A stretch of DNA of 29,275 nucleotides, taken from the IMG/VR virus record IMGVR_UViG_3300042691_025691, positions 1 through 29,275 of that record; one strand, 5' to 3'. Below are positions 1 to 21,732 of this stretch, piece after piece. Under the pieces are notes generated by a model. It was not told the DNA's origin, did no database searches, and saw only the letters and a list, made by a program, of their open reading frames with translations. Each line of letters opens with the position of its first letter. Position 1 is the stretch's first letter. Source of the DNA: a virus. Both the position numbers and the translations under genes were made by a program.

Positions 1-581
1 CAGGTCCAACAGGTCCTGCTGGTTTGGACTCAACTGCTATTGGTGCAACTGGCCCAACAGGAGCTACAGGTGCACAAGGACCAACTGGCCCAACAGGAGC
101 TGCGTCAACAGTAACTGGCCCTACTGGTGCAACGGGACCTACTGGATCGTTTGCTATCTCTGCATGGACCACATACACACCAAGCTTGATTGGAAGCACA
201 ACCAACCCAACAATTGGAAATGGAACTATTTCTGGTCGTTATATCAGCTTAGGCGCAATGGTTTTTGGAGAAATTAGAATTGTTGCTGGAACTGCAGGCT
301 TCAATCGTGGAGCTGGTACTTATTCGGTAACTCTTCCAACAAATGCTGTCTTTGAGGCATATCAACCTATTGGTCAAGTAGTAATGCGAGACGAAGGCCC
401 AGGTATTACATATTTTGGAACTGCAATCTTTACTACATTTGCCAACAGAGTCGAGCTTTATATGCACTCACAAAGCGCAATTTTTGACGAAGGAGTTTCT
501 GTAACAGAGAGCAGTCCATTCCTTTTCAGCGCAAACGACAAAATTCTGATTCAATTCTGCTACGAAGCGAATCTAAGTTAG
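1..581 (+). CDS. Collagen-like tail fibre protein, C-terminal part (5' truncated)
   Basis: The reading frame is open from the left edge, reading G-P-T-G-P-A-G before the TTG at 24, so the true start lies outside the window and TTG 24 is not the start. About 45 visible residues are Gly-X-Y repeats dominated by GPT and GAT. A non-collagen C-terminal domain of about 140 residues follows, beginning near AWTTYTPSLIGSTTNPTIGN and including GNGTISGRYISLG. Similar TYTP...GNGTI.GRY domains occur at the ends of actinophage minor tail or fibre proteins, where they probably form a beta-rich trimeric tip. Likely role: a receptor-contacting or accessory fibre with a triple-helical stalk. The next fibre gene starts 13 bases downstream behind an AGGAG site, so the two are probably co-transcribed. 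The collagen and tip architecture is clear; the exact virion position is inferred. Confidence 0.8.
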   Translation, partial: GPTGPAGLDSTAIGATGPTGATGAQGPTGPTGAASTVTGPTGATGPTGSFAISAWTTYTPSLIGSTTNPTIGNGTISGRYISLGAMVFGEIRIVAGTAGFNRGAGTYSVTLPTNAVFEAYQPIGQVVMRDEGPGITYFGTAIFTTFANRVELYMHSQSAIFDEGVSVTESSPFLFSANDKILIQFCYEANLS

Positions 582-594
582 GAGATGATGACAG

Positions 595-2499
595 ATGCCT
601 GCAATTGATTTTCCTAACTCACCGCAAGTAAATGACACATTTACTTCTGGTTCTCAGACTTGGGTATGGACTGGTACCGCATGGAACCTTGTTATTTCTC
701 AGGTTGTAGGCCCTACTGGACCTACAGGTCCTCAGGGAGCGGCTTCTACAGTTACTGGTCCTACTGGTCAACAAGGTCGTTTTTCAGTTGTTTCCGATAC
801 TCCACCAGCAGACCCAATTGCTGGCGATTCTTGGTTTAACTCAAGCACTGGTCGAATTTATGTTTACTATGACAGCTATTGGGTTGAGTCTGCTTCTTCA
901 AACGTAGGACCTGCTGGTCCTACTGGTGCGACAGGTCCAACTGGGGCTGCATCCACTGTTCAAGGTCCAACAGGTGCTGTTGGTCCAACTGGTGCAACAG
1001 GTCCTCGGGGACAAACAGGTCCAACAGGAGCTTCTATTACAGGAGCAACAGGTGCAACTGGTGCACAAGGACCTACTGGTCCACAAGGTGCAACTGGCGC
1101 TGAGGGAGATAGAGGTCCAACAGGTGCTTCAGGTCCTGCAGGCCCAACTGGTTCACAAGGACCCGCTGGGGATACTGGTCCTGCTGGTCCTACTGGTGCT
1201 CAAGGAGCTCCCGGTCCTACAGGTCCTCGTGGATTCGTTGGACCGACTGGTCCTGCTGGAACTCCAGGCGCTACTGGTCCATCGGTAACAGGTGCTACAG
1301 GTCCTATCGGACCAACTGGTCCTTCTGGTGGTCCTACAGGTCCAACTGGTGCGACTGGTCCCACAGGTGCGACAGGTGCCCAAGGAGACGTAGGACTTCG
1401 TGGTGCTACTGGACCTACGGGTGCGACAGGTTCTGCTTCAACAGTTCCGGGACCTACAGGTCCTCAAGGTGTTGCTGGTCCAACTGGACCAACTGGAGCG
1501 ACTGGTGCGACAGGAACAATTGGTCTTACTGGACCAACTGGAGCGACTGGTGCCACTGGTTCACAAGGAGTTGCTGGTAGCGATTTCAACAACACAACAT
1601 CTTCAACTTCTCGAACAATGTCTGCTGGAAACTTGCTTTTCACAGTCAATGCAATTCGTGCATATGCAGTAGGCAATCGAGTTCGTGTATACAACACTGG
1701 CGCTCCAACAATTTTTGTTGAAGGTGTAATTCTTTCAGTTGTTGGAAACGATGTAACAGTAAACGTAGATCTTGTAAATGGTTCTGGAACATATAACACA
1801 TGGAAGTTCTCTCTTGCTGGAGAACGAGGACCTACTGGTCCAACAGGTGCACAAGGTGTTTCAATCACTCTTAAGGGAAGTCGAGCAACTTCAGCTCTTC
1901 TACCTACAAGCGGAAATACTGTAAATGACGCATACATCGTTGATGCAGACGGTGATTTATATGTCTGGACTGGAACTGCTTGGAACAATGTAGGACAGAT
2001 TGTTGGTCCAACTGGTGCTACTGGCGCTACAGGTCAAACTGGTTTACAAGGTAATTCAATAACTGGTCCAACAGGCCCTACTGGGGCAACGGGTCTTCAA
2101 GGTGTTACTGGACCTACTGGTGCAACAGGTAGCTCAATTACTGGTGCGACAGGGCCTACTGGTGCAACAGGTCCAGCGTTTTTCAATTTGACTGGTAACC
2201 AGTATCTATCATCACAAACGCTTACTCAAGTAGACGCTGCGACACTGGTTCGAATTAACAGCTCAAGCTCTACAACTGTAACAATTCCTGCTGACGGAAC
2301 TGATGGCTACACATTCCCAACAGGAACTCAGATTGTGCTTACCCAACTAGGAACAGGTCAAGTAACCATTTCTGGAGCTGGAGGCGTTTCTGTTTTGAGT
2401 GAAGGTGGAAGGTTTATCACCAAGTCTCGTTATGCCGTTGCTTCTTTAATCAAGCTTGGAGCTAATTCATGGCTTCTAAGCGGAAACTTGACGGTGTAA
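595..2499 (+). CDS. Collagen-like modular tail fibre protein
   Basis: A 634-residue protein with alternating collagen stretches and small beta modules. Residues 1-36 form an N-terminal module containing [12 protein letters not shown]. Collagen runs at about 38-60, then a [20 protein letters not shown] module (about 81-101), then a long collagen stalk (about 104-327) rich in GPT/GAT. A beta insert (about 329-408), a DAYIV...[10 protein letters not shown] module (about 427-464) and more collagen (about 470-528) precede a C-terminal domain of about 100 residues. That domain contains [17 protein letters not shown] and [17 protein letters not shown]. It matches the end of the 16,043 fibre, and the N-terminus matches the 3,638 fibre, so the three are built from one module set. 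The ATG follows GGAGATGATGACAG. There are no cysteines or signal peptide. Role inferred: side or tail fibre that adsorbs to the host. Confidence 0.85.
904..1577 (+). repeat. Low-complexity collagen-coding tandem repeat
   Basis: A long run of 9-base units encoding Gly-X-Y, mostly Gly-Pro-Thr or Gly-Ala-Thr, inside the 634-residue fibre gene. DNA units are variants of GGTCCTACTGGTGCAACA. Codon use for Pro and Thr varies from unit to unit (CCT/CCA/CCC, ACT/ACA/ACC/ACG), so the protein repeat is conserved while the DNA repeat is degraded, which should limit slippage. Antisense open frames across it (Cys/Trp/Ser-rich) are by-products of this composition. Confidence 0.85.
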
Positions 2500-2501
2500 C
2501 C

Positions 2502-3416
2502 ATGTTGATTGCCACTCATGCAATGCATGCCACACTTCCATTTCCATTTTTACCTGCTCAATGGACTCAAGTAACTACATCAACATTTGGTACTACAAAT
2601 GTAAATGCCGTTACTTCCAATGGAGACGGTCAATTTATTGCGGTTGGAAGCTCTGGAAAAGTGGCAAGTTCAAATGATGGAATTAGCTGGACATCTGGAA
2701 ATTCTCAGTTTGATGGAAGCAACATCTATGCAGTTGCATATGGGGATGGAATTTATGTAATTGGCGGGAGCTCGGGAAAGATGGCTGTTTCATCAAATGG
2801 AACAACTTGGACAATAGTTCCATCTTCTTTTGGAGCAAGCACAATTCTTGCTATCACATACGCACCATCCGCATCACTGTGGATTGCAGCTGGTGGTTCA
2901 GGAAAACTAGCTACATCAATTGATGGTCTAACTTGGACCCAAAGAACATCTTCATTTGGAACAACATTTATCAATGCTCTTCACTCAACAAGCAGCATTA
3001 TTGTTGCTGTTGGGTATGACGGAAAGCTTGCTACATCGGTAAACGGAACTACTTGGACTCAAAGGTCCTCTTCGTTTGTTACTGGAACCATTTTTTCAGT
3101 TTCATCTACACCAAACGGAAGTCGTTTTGTGGCTGTTGGAGATTCTGGAAAAATTGCATATTCAACAAACGGAACTAGCTGGACTCAAGCTTTTCCAGCT
3201 ACAACATTTGGCGCATCCAGCGTTCGAGCAGTAGATGCCACTCAAGAAGTGTTTATCGCCGCTGGAGCAACTGGAAAATTAGGAACTTCCTACGATGGAA
3301 ATACTTGGTCTCAAAGAACCTCCAGCTTTGGGATTGACAACATCAATGGTATTTGGACTGGATCAACATTTTCATTGGCGGTGGGCAATAATGGAAAAAT
3401 TGCCTACTCGTTCTAG
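2502..3416 (+). CDS. Predicted seven-bladed beta-propeller tail-associated protein
   Basis: A 304-residue protein with roughly 40-residue repeats of the pattern (I/V)xAV...FIAVG.SGK(L/I)A.S.(N/D)G..WTQ..SSFG. Six full repeats plus a split one are visible. The N-terminal strand WTQVTTSTFGTTN would pair with the C-terminal AVGNNGKIAYSF, which is the closure used by seven-bladed propellers. The repeat resembles YCF48-like, BNR or sialidase-type propeller proteins, but I see no catalytic set, so a binding or structural role (perhaps surface glycan) is inferred. Start: the frame extends back to an ATG at 2469 inside the previous gene, but the ATG at 2502, two bases after that gene's stop, gives a cleaner gene and suggests re-initiation. 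A short hydrophobic stretch (TLPFPFLPA) near the N-terminus is not a convincing signal peptide. Confidence 0.75.
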   Translation: MLIATHAMHATLPFPFLPAQWTQVTTSTFGTTNVNAVTSNGDGQFIAVGSSGKVASSNDGISWTSGNSQFDGSNIYAVAYGDGIYVIGGSSGKMAVSSNGTTWTIVPSSFGASTILAITYAPSASLWIAAGGSGKLATSIDGLTWTQRTSSFGTTFINALHSTSSIIVAVGYDGKLATSVNGTTWTQRSSSFVTGTIFSVSSTPNGSRFVAVGDSGKIAYSTNGTSWTQAFPATTFGASSVRAVDATQEVFIAAGATGKLGTSYDGNTWSQRTSSFGIDNINGIWTGSTFSLAVGNNGKIAYSF

Positions 3417-3431
3417 GAGGGGGAAGATACA

Positions 3432-3599
3432 ATGTTTTCATATCTAATCATTGAAGAACCCGTCATGGTTCAAATCATGTACGGAGACAATGTGATTGAT
3501 GAAAGTGGCCCTTGGGAGTCAACTGCTTCAGCCGCAAACTGGGCTTCTGCCTATGTTGCAAAAATGAATGCTGGAATCCCAGAACCGCAGATTTCTTAA
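3432..3599 (+). CDS. 55-residue micro-protein in the fibre cluster
   Basis: A short reading frame of 56 codons including TAA, translating to MFSYLIIEEPVMVQIMYGDN followed by a Trp- and Ala-containing segment (SGPWESTASAANWASAYVAK) and ending in EPQIS. It has one of the strongest ribosome binding sites in the window: AGGAGGGGGAAG at 3415-3426 ahead of the ATG, overlapping the stop of the propeller gene. It fills the otherwise empty gap between the propeller gene and the next fibre gene and runs in the same direction. I do not recognise the family. Small proteins in this position can be fibre chaperones or adaptor subunits, but that is only a guess. Confidence that it is a gene comes from the Shine-Dalgarno sequence, the tight fit and the ordinary amino acid composition. 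Confidence 0.7.
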   Translation: MFSYLIIEEPVMVQIMYGDNVIDESGPWESTASAANWASAYVAKMNAGIPEPQIS

Positions 3600-3637
3600 C
3601 AGTACTATGAGCACAAGACCAGAAAGGAGTGACCTAA

Positions 3638-4288
3638 GTGGCAGCAATTGATTTTCCAACGCCTGTAGTTGTAGGCGAAGAATTTACAGTTGGCAGTCAA
3701 ACCTGGGTTTGGACTGGTGTCGTTTGGGAAGCCAAACGAGTAACTCCTACTGGTCCTACTGGTCCACAAGGACCGCAAGGCGCAACTGGACCGACTGGAG
3801 CTACAGGTGCGACTGGTCCACAAGGAATTATTGGTCCTACTGGTCCAGATTCTGATGTAGCTGGTCCTACTGGACCTACTGGTCCGCAAGGTGTTATCGG
3901 TCCAACTGGTCCGCAAGGTCTTCAAGGAGAGCAAGGACCTAGAGGTTTCACTGGTCCTACTGGTGCAGACTCATATGTTCCAGGTCCTCAGGGTCCTACT
4001 GGCCCTCGTGGACAGACAGGTCCTACAGGCCCAACTGGAGCTCAATCTGAAATTCCAGGTCCTACAGGCCCAACAGGTCCAGTAGGAAAATTTACTGTTG
4101 GACCCAACCAACCAGCTCTTGAATCATCGGTAAACGGTGACGTTTGGTTTAACACACAGAATGCTAAAACATTTGTTTTCTATGAAGGAGTTTTCGTAGA
4201 AACTTCAAGTGGAGCGCAAGGAGTTACTGGACCTACTGGGTCTGGCGGTTCATATAAGATAACTACGTCTTGGTGGCTTGGTGTATAA
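3638..4288 (+). CDS. Short collagen-like fibre protein
   Basis: A 216-residue protein starting at GTG (GTGGCAGCAATTGAT) behind a good AAAGGAG site. The N-terminal module [11 protein letters not shown]...[12 protein letters not shown] is a clear paralogue of the start of the 634-residue fibre. Residues about 38-148 are collagen-like Gly-X-Y with interruptions such as [11 protein letters not shown] and [32 protein letters not shown] module (about 160-185) again matches the larger fibre. The protein then ends abruptly after a short GPTG stretch with [14 protein letters not shown], lacking the roughly 100-residue C-terminal tip of its paralogues. It may be a short fibre, or a stalk whose tip is supplied by another gene product. 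It might also be a remnant of a longer fibre gene cut by recombination; the neat end and the following gene's own site argue for a functional short form. Confidence 0.8.
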
Positions 4289-15518: not shown

Positions 15519-16043
15519 ATGGCAATCACTCGCTTGGGGATCGCTAGGCCCACAGCTAACGATGCGACTACGCTATACACATTTACTGAGCACTACTTTG
15601 TCTCGGTAATTGCAACTAACGTAGCTCCCACATCCACTCCAGTACCTAGAGCAGCTATTTATGTTGTTCCATCTGGAGCCGTATCCGAGACATCGTATGC
15701 ATACGTCTGTAAGAATCTCAGCATACCTTTTGGTACATCCTTTGAGACTTTCAGATTTGCTGTAAATCCAGGAGACACTCTCAAGGTTCAACCAACTACG
15801 GCAAACGTAGCTTTTGCTGCTTACGGTATTTTGCAAGACGATGCTGTAGGAAACGGAGATTTGCCTCAAACATTTACAAACAAAATTATTCGTGGTGTGA
15901 ATAATACGATTTATCTAGATAAAGGAAACAGCGCTCAGCGAAATCCTGCTTCTGAAATTGGATATGTTCGGTTTAACACTGAATACGACACTTTGGAAGT
16001 CAGAACTGCCGCTGGTTGGAAGAGAGTGACGGTGACTGAGTAA
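15519..16043 (+). CDS. Small tail fibre-associated protein
   Basis: A 174-residue protein, ATG behind AAGGGG, nine bases after the giant gene. It contains [21 protein letters not shown] at about residues 72-92 and ends in a short beta segment, [20 protein letters not shown], of the kind often seen where phage fibre proteins attach or fold back. The first 110 residues are a paralogue of the N-terminal domain of the next gene ([11 protein letters not shown] ... [19 protein letters not shown]), pointing to a tandem duplication of a head or attachment domain. There is no collagen part. Its stop TAA shares a base with the ATG of the next gene (TAATG), so translation of the two is probably coupled. 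Likely a structural component or fibre adaptor; function not known. Confidence 0.7.
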
Positions 16044-17578
16044 TGGCTGTACAAAGAGTAGGTGTTCTTAATCCATTAGCAAACATTGCTACTGGTTTTC
16101 CAGCAGCCACGCTTAGTGGAGTTTCATCTGTAATTGCTGCAAACACTGGAGGTTCTCCAGCAAATGTAACAATTTACATACAACCAGTTGGAACTACTTC
16201 TGCTACAGACAGAGTGTATCTATGCTCCACTCTAGCCCTTGCTGTCGGTCAATCATTCGAAACTTTTAGATTTGGTCTTCAAGTCGGTGACATCGTATAT
16301 GTTCTAGCGGACACTGCTTCTGTTTCTTATTCAATGAACCTTTTGTATGAATCAGAAGGAAACGCAACGGTTTACTACCAAGAAACTCAACCTGGTTTTC
16401 CAGAAGTTGGGTACATGTGGGTAAAAGTAAGCACTGGAGAGGTGTATTTTTACACTGGTTCATCTTGGGAACAGCTTGCTTATGTAGGTCTTGGTCCAAC
16501 TGGACCAGTCGGTCCTACAGGCCCTCAAGGTTCTATAGGAGCAACTGGAGCCCAAGGTTCTGGTGTTCAAGTACTAGGAACCTACGCAACTCTTCAACTT
16601 CTCCAAGCAGATAATCCAACAGGAAACATCGGGGATGCGTACATTGTTCAAAACAACCTCTATGTTTGGTCAGATCTAAATACAGAGTGGTACAACGCTG
16701 GTCCTTTTGTTGGACCAGTAGGACCAACTGGTCCAACTGGTGCTGCTGGAGCTACAGGACCAACTGGAGCCTCTATTACAGGTCCTACAGGACCTTCTGG
16801 CGGTCCTACTGGACCTGCAGGTGCAACTGGAAATACAGGCCCTACAGGGCCTCAGGGAGCTACAGGACCAACAGGTGCTACTGGTGACACTGGACCAATT
16901 GGACCTACTGGACCTTTGGGTCCAACTGGTTCTCAGGGGGCGACAGGTGCTCAGGGTCCTACAGGAGCTACAGGAGCGACTGGTGCTGGTGGACCGACAG
17001 GTCCGACTGGACCAGCCACAACAAACGTAAATCTTTTAGGAAGTGTTGCTAATTTTGCTGCACTTCCAACTGGACCTACAGCTGATGACTCTTACATCAC
17101 TCTCGACACTGGAGACATCTACTTCTGGGACGGAGCTTCTTGGGACAACCTAGGGCCTCTTTATGGACCTACAGGTCCTACAGGGCCATCTGGAACCTCT
17201 GGTTCTGCTGGAGCAACAGGTCCTGCTGGGCCTACTGGACCTACGGGTGCTCAGGGAGATTGGTCTACTTCTCAAACAGTAGTAGAGCAAACAGCCAACT
17301 ACTCACTTCTTCTTTCAGATGCTGGAAAGCTTTTGAAACTCACAAAGTCAACTGGATTTACGTTAACAATTCCTACAGAAGCAGCACAAGCTTTTGGAAT
17401 TGGTCAAAGAGTTGACATTATCCAATACGGTGCTGGTCAAGTAACTGTAACTGGGGACGGTGGGGTTACCCTCCGCGCTACGCCAACCGCAAAACTCAGA
17501 ACTCAGTACTCCACGGCTTCTCTTATCAAGCTTGGCGTAGACGAGTGGGTTTTGGTTGGAGACTTGGCTCTAAGCTAA
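16043..17578 (+). CDS. Collagen-like modular tail fibre protein (second large fibre)
   Basis: A 511-residue protein. Residues 1-146 are a beta domain paralogous to the upstream gene, ending in a [20 protein letters not shown] module. Collagen follows at about 150-172, a [13 protein letters not shown] module at about 195-210, collagen (GPT/GAT) at about 222-325, a second module ([20 protein letters not shown]) and collagen at about 373-406. The C-terminal tip of about 100 residues contains [34 protein letters not shown] and [18 protein letters not shown]. The tip matches that of the 634-residue fibre 14 kb away. TAATG overlaps join it to both neighbours. Role inferred: host-recognition fibre, with a trimerising tip and triple-helical stalk. 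Confidence 0.85.
16711..17018 (+). repeat. Collagen-coding tandem repeat of second large fibre
   Basis: A 9-base periodic region encoding about 100 residues of Gly-X-Y in the 511-residue fibre, interrupted by imperfect units such as [11 protein letters not shown] and [10 protein letters not shown]. Thr is the most frequent residue in the Y position. The strand-shifted open frames here are composition shadows. Confidence 0.8.
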
Positions 17579-18855: not shown

Positions 18856-19929
18856 ATGAAAGTTGCTATCTATACGATTGCTCTTAATGAGCGTCAGTTT
18901 GTAGATACATGGTTTGAATCAGCAAAAGATGCTGACTATCTACTAATTGCAGACACGGGTTCTACAGATGGAACCCCTGAGAGAGCCAGAGAGCTTGGAA
19001 TACATGTTGTAGATATTCGCGTCTCCCCTTGGAGATTCGACGATGCTCGCAATGCAGCACTAGCTGCACTCCCTATTGATATTGATATGTGTATCTCTTT
19101 AGATATGGATGAAGTAATCACACCAAATTGGAGAGAACCTCTACAAAAAGCATGGGAAGAAGGGGTTACTCGTCCTAGATATAAGCATGTTTGGTCATTT
19201 AATGAGGACGGAACTCCTGGACTTGAGTTCAGCTACGACCACATTCATACTCGTAAAAACTACCGTTGGCGTCATCCAGTACACGAGTGTCTTTACGCTT
19301 ATGGCATTGAAGAGAAGCAGTCTTGGATTTCTGAAATAGAGACACACCACCATCCAGACCCAACTAAGAGCCGTTCTCAGTATCTTCCTTTGCTCAAGAT
19401 GTCTGTTCAAGAAGATCCCTACAACGACAGAAACGCTTTCTACTACGGACGAGAGCTTTATTTTTATGGAAGGTATGCAGAAGCTGCTGTAGAACTTAAG
19501 AGACATCTAACTCTTCCAACAGCCACTTGGGCTCCAGAAAGAGCTGCCTCTATGCGGTTTATTGGCAAAAGCGTGCCAGCAGAAGCAGAGATTTGGTTCC
19601 GTAAGGCAATTGACCAAGCACCTGGCCGCCGTGAACCATATGTTGATTTAGCAAAGCTTTACTACGAACGTCAGGCTTGGCATGAATGTTTGCAGGCGTC
19701 TAAAGATGCTCTAGCAATTACAGTCAAACCACTTGAGTATCTATGTGAAGCAGAAGCTTGGGGAGCAGCTCCATACGACTATGCATCAATTGCAGCGTAT
19801 CGACTTGGGCTGTTTGAAGAAGCGCTTGATTACGCTAAGAAGGCTGTTGAGATTGATCCTGAGGACGAGCGTCTTCAGTCAAACTTAAAGTTTTGCGAGG
19901 AAGCTTTTTCGCAGAAGACTTCTTCTTAG
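18856..19929 (+). CDS. Family 2 glycosyltransferase with C-terminal TPR repeats
   Basis: A 357-residue protein. The N-terminal GT-A domain has IALNER (8-13), the nucleotide-binding DTGSTDGT (33-40), and the metal-binding DMD at 83-85 followed by E. The segment RWRHPVHECLYAYG is typical of the GT2 subgroup that modifies proteins or cell surfaces. The last roughly 150 residues carry TPR-like helices (FYYGRELYFYGRYAEAAVEL, then AYRLGLFEEALDYAKKAVEI DPEDE), often used to hold a protein acceptor. ATG follows GGAAGGACTTAGG. Its last 95 bases overlap the end of the WhiB gene on the other strand. With the methyltransferase next door and collagen fibres rich in Gly-Pro-Thr upstream, the likely acceptor is a virion fibre; host glycan modification is the alternative. 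Confidence 0.8.
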   Translation: MKVAIYTIALNERQFVDTWFESAKDADYLLIADTGSTDGTPERARELGIHVVDIRVSPWRFDDARNAALAALPIDIDMCISLDMDEVITPNWREPLQKAWEEGVTRPRYKHVWSFNEDGTPGLEFSYDHIHTRKNYRWRHPVHECLYAYGIEEKQSWISEIETHHHPDPTKSRSQYLPLLKMSVQEDPYNDRNAFYYGRELYFYGRYAEAAVELKRHLTLPTATWAPERAASMRFIGKSVPAEAEIWFRKAIDQAPGRREPYVDLAKLYYERQAWHECLQASKDALAITVKPLEYLCEAEAWGAAPYDYASIAAYRLGLFEEALDYAKKAVEIDPEDERLQSNLKFCEEAFSQKTSS

Positions 19930-20419
19930 AGCGTTTTTCCTTCTCACGAAGTCGTTTCTCTAGTTTGTCTGCTTTTTCTTGTTTGTAAGCCTCTACTGCA
20001 TTTACGCTTGTTCGGCTTCTCCAAGAAAAATCACACACTGTGCATGTAACAATTTTTGCTACCGTCCATCGTCCACCACCAGGCATCTCTTGAGAACTGG
20101 TTTCTAACTTTGATGGTCGAGCTCCGCAATAAGGACAGTTTGGGTATCTACGCCGTCTAGCTTCTTCACCGCTGTAAGAGACAGAGAGTGCTCGACGAAT
20201 TTCCATTTCGTCTTTGCCTCCCCAAACACCCCATATTTGACGGTGCTCTAGAGCCCATTGAATGCATTGACGCCTTACAGGACAGGAGTAGCAGATGTTT
20301 TTTGCGTCGTATCGTTCACGAGGGATTTTAGAGAAAAACCATTCTCTATTCTTTTGGTATTCCTTGCGAGAGCAGAGGGCATCCTTCTGCCAATCAATGC
20401 TGTTCGCTGGTTTCCACAC
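19835..20419 (-). CDS. WhiB-family transcription factor fused to a zinc ribbon and basic tail
   Basis: A 194-residue protein starting at GTG. The N-terminal half is a WhiB domain: Cys16, Cys43, Cys46 and Cys52 (LC ... ICYSCPVRRQC) would hold a [4Fe-4S] cluster, followed by the family's GVWGG turn (64-68). WhiB proteins act with the host housekeeping sigma factor to set promoter choice. After this comes an extra zinc ribbon (CPYC at 95-98, CTVC at 126-129) and a Lys/Arg-rich tail that could bind nucleic acid. Typical WhiB proteins are about 80-130 residues, so the fusion is unusual. There is no clear Shine-Dalgarno site before the GTG; a TACTAT box six bases upstream would give a leaderless transcript. 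The end of the gene lies antisense to the glycosyltransferase gene. Probable role: control of early/late switching or host transcription. Confidence 0.85.
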   Translation of the reverse strand: MWKPANSIDWQKDALCSRKEYQKNREWFFSKIPRERYDAKNICYSCPVRRQCIQWALEHRQIWGVWGGKDEMEIRRALSVSYSGEEARRRRYPNCPYCGARPSKLETSSQEMPGGGRWTVAKIVTCTVCDFSWRSRTSVNAVEAYKQEKADKLEKRLREKEKRSKKKSSAKKLPRKTLSLTEDARPQDQSQQPS

Positions 20420-20480
20420 AAAACCATAGTACTATACAAAACCATAAAAGTAAGGGACTAAACAACTAAAGTTGACTAAA
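20418..20480 (-). promoter_or_regulatory. Repeat-rich regulatory region upstream of whiB-like gene
   Basis: On the + strand, ACAAAACCATA occurs at 20418-20428 and again at 20436-20446, 18 bases apart. A perfect 10-base palindrome ATAGTACTAT (20426-20435) lies across the gap. GACTAAA occurs at 20456-20462 and 20474-20480, also 18 bases apart, with the inverted repeat CAACT-AA-AGTTG between. On the - strand TACTAT (20426-20431) ends six bases before the GTG start, with a weak TTACTT 16 bases further up. The layout suggests an operator-controlled, possibly leaderless promoter for the WhiB gene. Confidence 0.4.
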
Positions 20481-20811
20481 ACTCTATCCAAGTAGTTGGA
20501 AGAGGTTCTTCAACAAAATCTCCGTACTCTGTTTCTGAAGTGTCATCACAAACCGAGTATTCTGTCTCACCTTCTATAATGCCAGAGTAGCCGTGTTCAA
20601 TTGAAGCTTTTTCTATCATATTAAATCCATCTAACAAAGAGTCGCAAATCCCGTCTCTTTGAAGAGTAGAAGCTAAAGCTCTACGAACAATTTCAGTTTC
20701 TAGATCAACGTGATCCAACGTGAAGTAGATAATTTCAGATTTACCACTCTGAGAGTATCCGTTACCGTGCCATTGAACCCAAAGAGATTCGCCTAATCGA
20801 ACATCTTTCAA
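20476..20811 (-). CDS. Hypothetical acidic protein
   Basis: A 111-residue protein that I do not recognise. The likely start is TTG at 20811, giving a four-base TTGA overlap with the stop of the upstream 96-residue gene; there is no ATG close to the N-terminus. The first half (LWVQWHGNGYSQSGKSEIIY, then LDHVDLETEIVRRALAST) looks like a compact alpha/beta domain. The last 35 residues are strongly acidic (EGETEYSVCDDTSETEYGDF). It sits between a zinc protein and the WhiB-zinc-ribbon gene in an apparent operon of small early genes; the acidic tail would fit a host-takeover or DNA-mimic type protein, but nothing proves that. Confidence 0.6.
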   Translation of the reverse strand: MKDVRLGESLWVQWHGNGYSQSGKSEIIYFTLDHVDLETEIVRRALASTLQRDGICDSLLDGFNMIEKASIEHGYSGIIEGETEYSVCDDTSETEYGDFVEEPLPTTWIEF

Positions 20812-21098
20812 TTGTCGTCCTCTTCTAACCTGTTGAGCTCAACGGTTCCTTCGTTTGATTCTGAATGAAAAATTACGGTTGGGTCTTTCATTTCATAAAT
20901 CCCAGACACCGTAATTTTCCCGCAGTAGTGGCAAATCTCAACGCTTCCAGTGTTCACTTTTTCTGGAACATCTACGCCTTTTAGCTTCATAAGGATGTTG
21001 CCAGTATCGTCTATGCTCTCTGGCTCCCAGCGGGCGTGGTCTTTTAGCCAGCACACCTCGCAGACTGGTTCTGGAGTCAGCACTTGCTTGCCACTCAT
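20808..21098 (-). CDS. Small zinc-binding-type protein (two CxxC motifs)
   Basis: A 96-residue protein with CEVC near residue 13 and CHYC near residue 57, spaced to form one zinc ribbon or knuckle pair. The segment ICHYCGKITVSGIYEM is a typical treble-clef/ribbon hairpin. The C-terminus is acidic (NRLEEDDN). The ATG at 21098 lies 15 bases after the stop of the second WhiB gene; the downstream gene starts within its stop. No family is recognised beyond the zinc motif. Together with two WhiB proteins it makes three Cys-rich, probably metal-binding, small proteins in 2 kb, consistent with a transcription-control cluster. Confidence 0.65.
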   Translation of the reverse strand: MSGKQVLTPEPVCEVCWLKDHARWEPESIDDTGNILMKLKGVDVPEKVNTGSVEICHYCGKITVSGIYEMKDPTVIFHSESNEGTVELNRLEEDDN

Positions 21099-21113: not shown

Positions 21114-21392
21114 CTACTTAACGACTGTAATAGGTATTCTGATGTTACGTTTAGAACGAATTCTTTGCCGTTCTTTCGGGCTTAGACCGCCCCACATTCC
21201 ATGAACTTCAAAATGAATTCCCCACTCAGCACAATCTGCCCTATGTACACAATCGTGACAGATTCTTCTAGCTGCATCGTAAGTTTGAGGTCTATCACTC
21301 ACTTCATCTTTGTCTGGAGCAAAAAATGGTTCGACACCAATTTCTCTACACAAAGCTTGAGTAAAGGTCCAAGGTCCTTTATCGGTTGTCAT
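21114..21392 (-). CDS. WhiB-family protein (short form)
   Basis: A 92-residue protein starting at ATG 21392 (MTTDKGPWTFTQALC). The upstream in-frame extension to 21488 runs deep into the neighbouring gene and looks like shadow sequence. The four cluster ligands are Cys15, Cys45, Cys48 and Cys54 (ALC ... ICHDCVHRADC), followed by the WhiB signature GMWGGLSPKERQRIR (65-79) and a basic C-terminus (SKRNIRI) of the type that contacts DNA. This is a standard-length WhiB, in contrast to the fused one downstream. The start overlaps the end of the upstream gene by 14 bases. Phage WhiB proteins such as mycobacteriophage TM4 WhiBTM4 act as dominant regulators of host WhiB functions; a similar role is inferred here. 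Confidence 0.85.
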   Translation of the reverse strand: MTTDKGPWTFTQALCREIGVEPFFAPDKDEVSDRPQTYDAARRICHDCVHRADCAEWGIHFEVHGMWGGLSPKERQRIRSKRNIRIPITVVK

Positions 21393-21732
21393 GCAGATTC
21401 TTTGCCACTTCGTAGCCGCACCCTGCGTAACCTGCAATATCAATCCATGTATCTGGTTGGAACCCGTAGTTTGAGACGAACCTAGCAAGCTTTACACCAA
21501 TCATTGCCATGGCTACATCTTCTGTAGTGAACTCTCTTTGAAAAATTACAGACCAAATCTTTGCGATGTTGGTGAAGTTCTCTTCTGGTCCACCGTATTG
21601 TTTGTTTCTATCTCCATTAATAATTCGAGCAGCTTCACGGAGGGCTTGGACTCGAATCGGAGTATCGTCATTTGATGGTGGTACTTCTTTTGCTTGGTTG
21701 TTGTACTGGATACCACTTGTGTCATTGGACAT
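21379..21732 (-). CDS. DUF6378-like phage protein
   Basis: A 117-residue protein. The ATG at 21732 (MSNDTSG) follows GCGAGAATTAAAG and is preferred over a TTG at 21747; it overlaps the upstream gene by 11 bases. The core AARIINGDRNKQYGGPEENF, then IAKIWSVIF, DVAMAMIGVKLARF and DTWIDIAGYAGCGYEVAK matches the small helical family annotated as DUF6378 in many phages. The ordered acidic and Asn/Asp residues recall all-alpha NTP pyrophosphatase-like folds, but that link is uncertain. It is co-transcribed with the WhiB genes. A role in nucleotide house-cleaning is possible; I would leave the function open. Confidence 0.7.
   Translation of the reverse strand: MSNDTSGIQYNNQAKEVPPSNDDTPIRVQALREAARIINGDRNKQYGGPEENFTNIAKIWSVIFQREFTTEDVAMAMIGVKLARFVSNYGFQPDTWIDIAGYAGCGYEVAKNLHDNR

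Follow-up and report, generated by a model that had tools for sequence, protein, structure and literature searches.

Several described systems bear on how a phage protein might act on the σ factor of its host. In WhiB7 from Mycobacterium tuberculosis, the Wbl domain sits on region 4 of σA and a C-terminal part of the protein, a short AT-hook (RGRP), contacts DNA (PMC10245118). The residues that mediate binding to the σ factor have been defined in WhiB3, where the complex with σA region 4 is lost when F31, F32 or W76 is changed to alanine; these positions correspond, respectively, to F17, F18 and W60 of WhiB1, whose W3 matters for both the cluster and the σ complex (PMC10245118). Phage WhiB genes serve as a marker for freshwater actinophages (PMC6802176), and according to a 2021 survey the WhiB of phage TM4 was the sole one studied for its function in infection (PMC8612146). 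Outside this family, AsiA and MotA from T4 are phage proteins that bind σ region 4 and upstream DNA and thereby redirect the polymerase (PMC6755090), but they are two separate proteins and serve here by working analogy only, no sequence relationship being claimed.

The stretch of DNA analysed here, hereafter the window, is a virus record of 29,275 bases that contains two WhiB genes. The longer of them encodes a WhiB domain fused to a zinc ribbon. The features of the locus are as follows.

18856-19929, plus strand: convergent glycosyltransferase/TPR gene, overlapping the tail of the fused WhiB gene by 95 nt
19835-20419, minus strand: fused WhiB-zinc ribbon gene, GTG start, 194 aa, intact ORF
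19838-19969, minus strand: variable Lys/Arg/Glu-rich tail, aa 151-194, its 3' part inside the span of the convergent gene
19970-20185, minus strand: Arg-rich linker and zinc ribbon, aa 79-150, cysteines kept across the fused relatives
20192-20392, minus strand: WhiB domain, aa 10-76, PF02467, aligned to the WhiB1, WhiB7 and WhiB structures
20426-20431, minus strand: TACTAT, 6 nt ahead of the GTG start, a candidate -10 element for leaderless transcription
20446-20449, minus strand: conserved T-tract spanning -30 to -27 relative to the start codon, each position being T in 22-24 of 31 sequences
20476-20811, minus strand: up1, a small linked gene (111 aa) and probable partner, directly upstream of the fused gene
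20808-21098, minus strand: gene for a 96-aa protein with two CxxC pairs (CEVC and CHYC), between the two WhiB genes
21114-21488, minus strand: second, short WhiB gene (PF02467, 48.9 bits), with the ATG at 21392 as the likelier start

Read along the minus strand, the order is thus short WhiB, 96-aa CxxC protein, up1 and fused WhiB, the last of which forms the distal end of a minus-strand block of replication genes. The short WhiB carries CHDC and GMWGG motifs. The overlap with the glycosyltransferase/TPR gene (19835-19929) is tail to tail, and on the plus strand a structural gene block encodes several long proteins with collagen-like repeats (1-4288 and 16043-17578).

The first-pass annotation had described a complete WhiB domain followed by a second set of cysteines, and both hold. 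The WhiB domain reaches 60.9 bits in Pfam (PF02467, E 1.7e-16, curated cut-off 23.6). Its cysteines C16, C43, C46 and C52 are invariant in the alignment of relatives, and the beta turn GVWGG (aa 64-68) fits the G[I/V]W[G/A]G of the Wbl family. The second set follows the pattern C95-x2-C98-x27-C126-x2-C129, all four being invariant in the fused relatives aligned. In the AlphaFold2 model (mean pLDDT 80.8) the WhiB helical domain is accompanied by a separate beta ribbon with strands at 104-110, 119-125 and 131-133, continued by a long helix at 135-170 (residue n in the model and in the alignments is n+1 of the full protein, as numbering there begins at the second codon). The two CxxC knuckles lie on this predicted beta ribbon, which is the arrangement that defines a zinc ribbon fold. 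The best solved match of the whole model is WhiB1 in complex with σ region 4 (6ono, Z 5.2, 70 residues, 3.2 A).

The WhiB domain and the ribbon are under equal purifying selection, with hardly any constraint on the tail. Across 36 representatives, pairwise identity averages 0.70 in the WhiB part, 0.73 in linker plus ribbon and 0.30 in the tail, and the median dN/dS is 0.145 (from only 19 unsaturated pairs), 0.144 and 0.91, respectively. The tail, which had been noted as Lys/Arg-rich, is indeed basic (net +8 over 44 aa), but it is a mixture of Lys, Arg and Glu that ranges from 10 to 49 aa among the relatives and varies in charge as well, so that it looks like a variable helix and not like a defining part of the protein. 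In a WhiB-domain tree, which rests on few columns and leaves many inner forks without resolution, a branch with support 98/93 separates all fused proteins from the short WhiB genes that these phages also carry.

The fused proteins are a genuine and widespread subclass of Wbl proteins. The fusion proposed from the window alone recurs in at least 242 IMG/VR contigs found by an alignment-based search, which used the ribbon pattern, so that the presence of the ribbon in those matches is partly by design. A single-protein scan of IMG/VR gave 4 loci. Well beyond what chance would give, the identical architecture is shared by 35 representative contigs, with identities of 53-96%. Among sequenced phages, the closest is the Actinomycetia phage DSL-LC01 (WJZ48551, 58% identity), which shares the small upstream gene up1 and a similar overlap with a convergent glycosyltransferase gene; unlike in the window, its fused gene overlaps the upstream gene, with no separate gap for a leaderless promoter, and neither the 96-aa CxxC gene nor a short WhiB was found beside it. 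The Microbacterium phages Pumpernickel (gp105), Cece, A3Wally, Big4 and Zooman have WhiB with the same ribbon and the same up1, but at 40-46% identity, with a GTRGG or GTRAG turn and without the short WhiB upstream. More distantly, the fused form also occurs in Arthrobacter phages. When the ribbon alone was searched by tblastn against 50,697 phage records, significant E-values were obtained only for DSL-LC01 and the Microbacterium phages, and a ribbon profile additionally picked up the Arthrobacter phages Atuin and Mimi. As a control, this profile recovered five of six phage records and missed Fruitloop alone. Fruitloop gp55, from a cluster F1 mycobacteriophage and noted as 'WhiB/HNH endonuclease', likewise joins WhiB to a small cysteine-rich domain, but its cysteine pattern is different (weak MYND match), it does not match the ribbon profile and it falls outside the fused clade; here WhiB was apparently joined to a metal-binding domain independently.

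The subclass is apparently restricted to phages. Against 394 Actinomycetes genomes, the ribbon profile gave a single weak match without a WhiB domain. This match reads as a methyltransferase-like protein with a zinc ribbon of its own, and a host origin of the ribbon was not retained on its account. What is already known is that relatives in phage records belong to the WhiB family, as they are annotated merely as such (WJZ48551 as a WhiB family transcriptional regulator); the fusion of a phage WhiB with a zinc ribbon is undescribed in the papers searched, and the word 'zinc' is absent from the phage WhiB survey (PMC8612146) and from the Wbl review.

The surroundings of the fused gene are conserved to different degrees. 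Across 107 loci, several of which are contig ends, up1 is present in 102, the 96-aa CxxC gene in 90, a nearby glycosyltransferase in 89 and the short WhiB, about 1 kb upstream, in 85. The linkage of up1 holds in the reverse direction. A search that started from up1, without WhiB or ribbon sequence, kept 80 loci, and in all 75 contigs with enough downstream sequence the fused gene with its ribbon follows 51-80 nt after up1. Additionally, the 50,697 phage records contain up1 in 7 cases, each with the fusion, and Cece is an eighth at weaker similarity. The up1 protein is a probable functional partner of the fused protein. It evolves fast, with L10, W11, W14, Q51, G54 and C88 invariant, and its model is confident (pLDDT 87); structural matches are too weak to assign a fold, the best being ribosomal L23-like (Z 3.8), and PHROG gave no convincing match (best E 0.036). 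In the Arthrobacter phages, a small gene precedes the fusion and might be a distant up1, although BLAST found no similarity between the two, and the fused gene overlaps the gene that precedes it, as it also does in the Microbacterium phages.

A TANNNT hexamer close to the start, without a Shine-Dalgarno sequence, is the pattern of actinobacterial leaderless genes. Such a hexamer lies 6-7 nt before the start of the fused gene in 30 of 31 representatives of the freshwater clade, and no Shine-Dalgarno sequence precedes the gene in the window. Judged from these sequences, the fused gene appears to have its own conserved, leaderless-type candidate promoter. The 96-aa CxxC gene may also have one (TAAACT, 6 nt before its ATG). 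In five large freshwater phage relatives, leaderless-like starts of this kind (TANNNT 6-7 nt before ATG or GTG, no Shine-Dalgarno) are about two- to fivefold enriched over control spacings. A phage-wide promoter element that includes the T-tract near -30 was considered and rejected, as the tract is conserved at the fused gene but not enriched genome-wide, and a genome-wide look at the five relatives found no common promoter element in the phages that the ribbon might recognise, which speaks against the mechanism proposed below.

With regard to the σ factor, alignment to solved Wbl proteins places F28, F29 and W66 of the fused protein at the positions of WhiB1 F17, F18 and W60, and W10 at that of W3. 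All four (W9, F27, F28 and W65 in alignment numbering) show no variation across the 36 sequences aligned from the freshwater set. As the published contact residues for σA region 4 are conserved, binding of the fused protein to the host σ factor is plausible. In the Microbacterium relatives, an Arg replaces W66 within the GTRGG or GTRAG turn, and this change of the beta-turn Trp should disturb canonical σ binding.

These observations can be accommodated in a mechanism that we hold with moderate confidence, in which the protein is a phage Wbl factor with two contacts. The WhiB domain would hold a [4Fe-4S] cluster and dock on region 4 of the principal σ factor of the host via W10, F28, F29 and W66, while the Arg-rich linker and the ribbon, the latter with its zinc, would touch DNA immediately ahead of the promoter, in the way that the WhiB7 AT-hook does. 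Unlike WhiB7, the fused protein would use a folded ribbon; neither RGR nor GRP, parts of the AT-hook that marks the WhiB7 subclass, occurs anywhere in it. Alternatively, the second contact of the ribbon may be with RNA polymerase. In either case, the outcome would be that the host polymerase is directed to phage promoters. In favour of this mechanism are the σ-contact residues, the match of the model to WhiB1 with σ region 4, the equal constraint on WhiB and ribbon, the single clade, the linkage to up1 and the candidate promoter, as well as the fact that weak structural neighbours of the ribbon include zinc ribbons from proteins of transcription and RNA processing.

Less likely is that the protein is a dominant-negative regulator that binds the host σ factor or Wbl promoters and chiefly shuts off host genes, such as those for cell division, or blocks superinfection, with the ribbon merely strengthening the binding. 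The precedents are that TM4 WhiB represses host whiB2 and blocks superinfection (cited in PMC8612146 and PMC10202952), and that the overexpressed WhiB of phage Adephagia inhibits the growth of M. smegmatis (PMC11373665). The ribbon of the fused protein, however, is under the same constraint as the WhiB domain and should therefore have a role of its own. To our knowledge, moreover, TM4 WhiB exerts its effects without any ribbon.

Steering by contact with DNA would also be replaced if the ribbon bound the RNA polymerase core in the manner of TFIIS or RPB9 and acted during initiation or elongation, which we regard as unlikely. Structural searches with the isolated ribbon bring up TFIIS, RPB9-type, RNase P and NrdR ribbons at Z 3-4, with about 42 residues aligned, and viral TFIIS models are also among its weak matches; unrelated ribbons nevertheless tie with them, and at this level the fold is too generic for the matches to discriminate between functions. 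Likewise, the [ED]xPxGGRW loop that is conserved between the two CxxC knuckles would suit a polymerase contact, but it is missing in the Arthrobacter relatives. Sequence searches assign the ribbon no Pfam family above cut-off and only weak matches in PHROG, and its closest solved sequence match is ShdD (E 0.019). The commonest Pfam match of the ribbon alone is Lar (PF14354), found for 8 of 10 members with E 0.0032 at best; searched at full length, one member gives E 0.00089 for Lar, and these matches might suggest an anti-restriction module joined to a WhiB factor. Since every ribbon match falls under the curated cut-off of 28.6 bits and zinc ribbons of many functions score alike, this is very improbable. 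Finally, a frameshift, a misassembly or a short WhiB gene lengthened by chance, for which nothing but the unusual length speaks, is ruled out by an intact ORF with no frameshift and no internal stop codons, and by the recurrence of the fusion in independent contigs numbering in the hundreds and in cultured phages that have been sequenced.

Returning to the two-contact Wbl factor, it is conceivable, if doubtful, that the fused protein and up1 form a two-protein system for σ appropriation, similar in its logic to AsiA and MotA of T4 and conserved in phages of freshwater actinobacteria as well as of Microbacterium. In the Microbacterium branch, the σ-contact Trp would then have been lost and the ribbon or up1 would have taken over the contact with the polymerase. 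The natural change from GVWGG to GTRGG provides a ready-made test of the σ contact, and since cultured members exist in Microbacterium phages, a role in host transcription takeover is directly testable. A WhiB subclass defined by its additional ribbon and its constant partner gene is a concrete target for study, and a fused regulator of this kind may help the virus to take over the transcription of its host.
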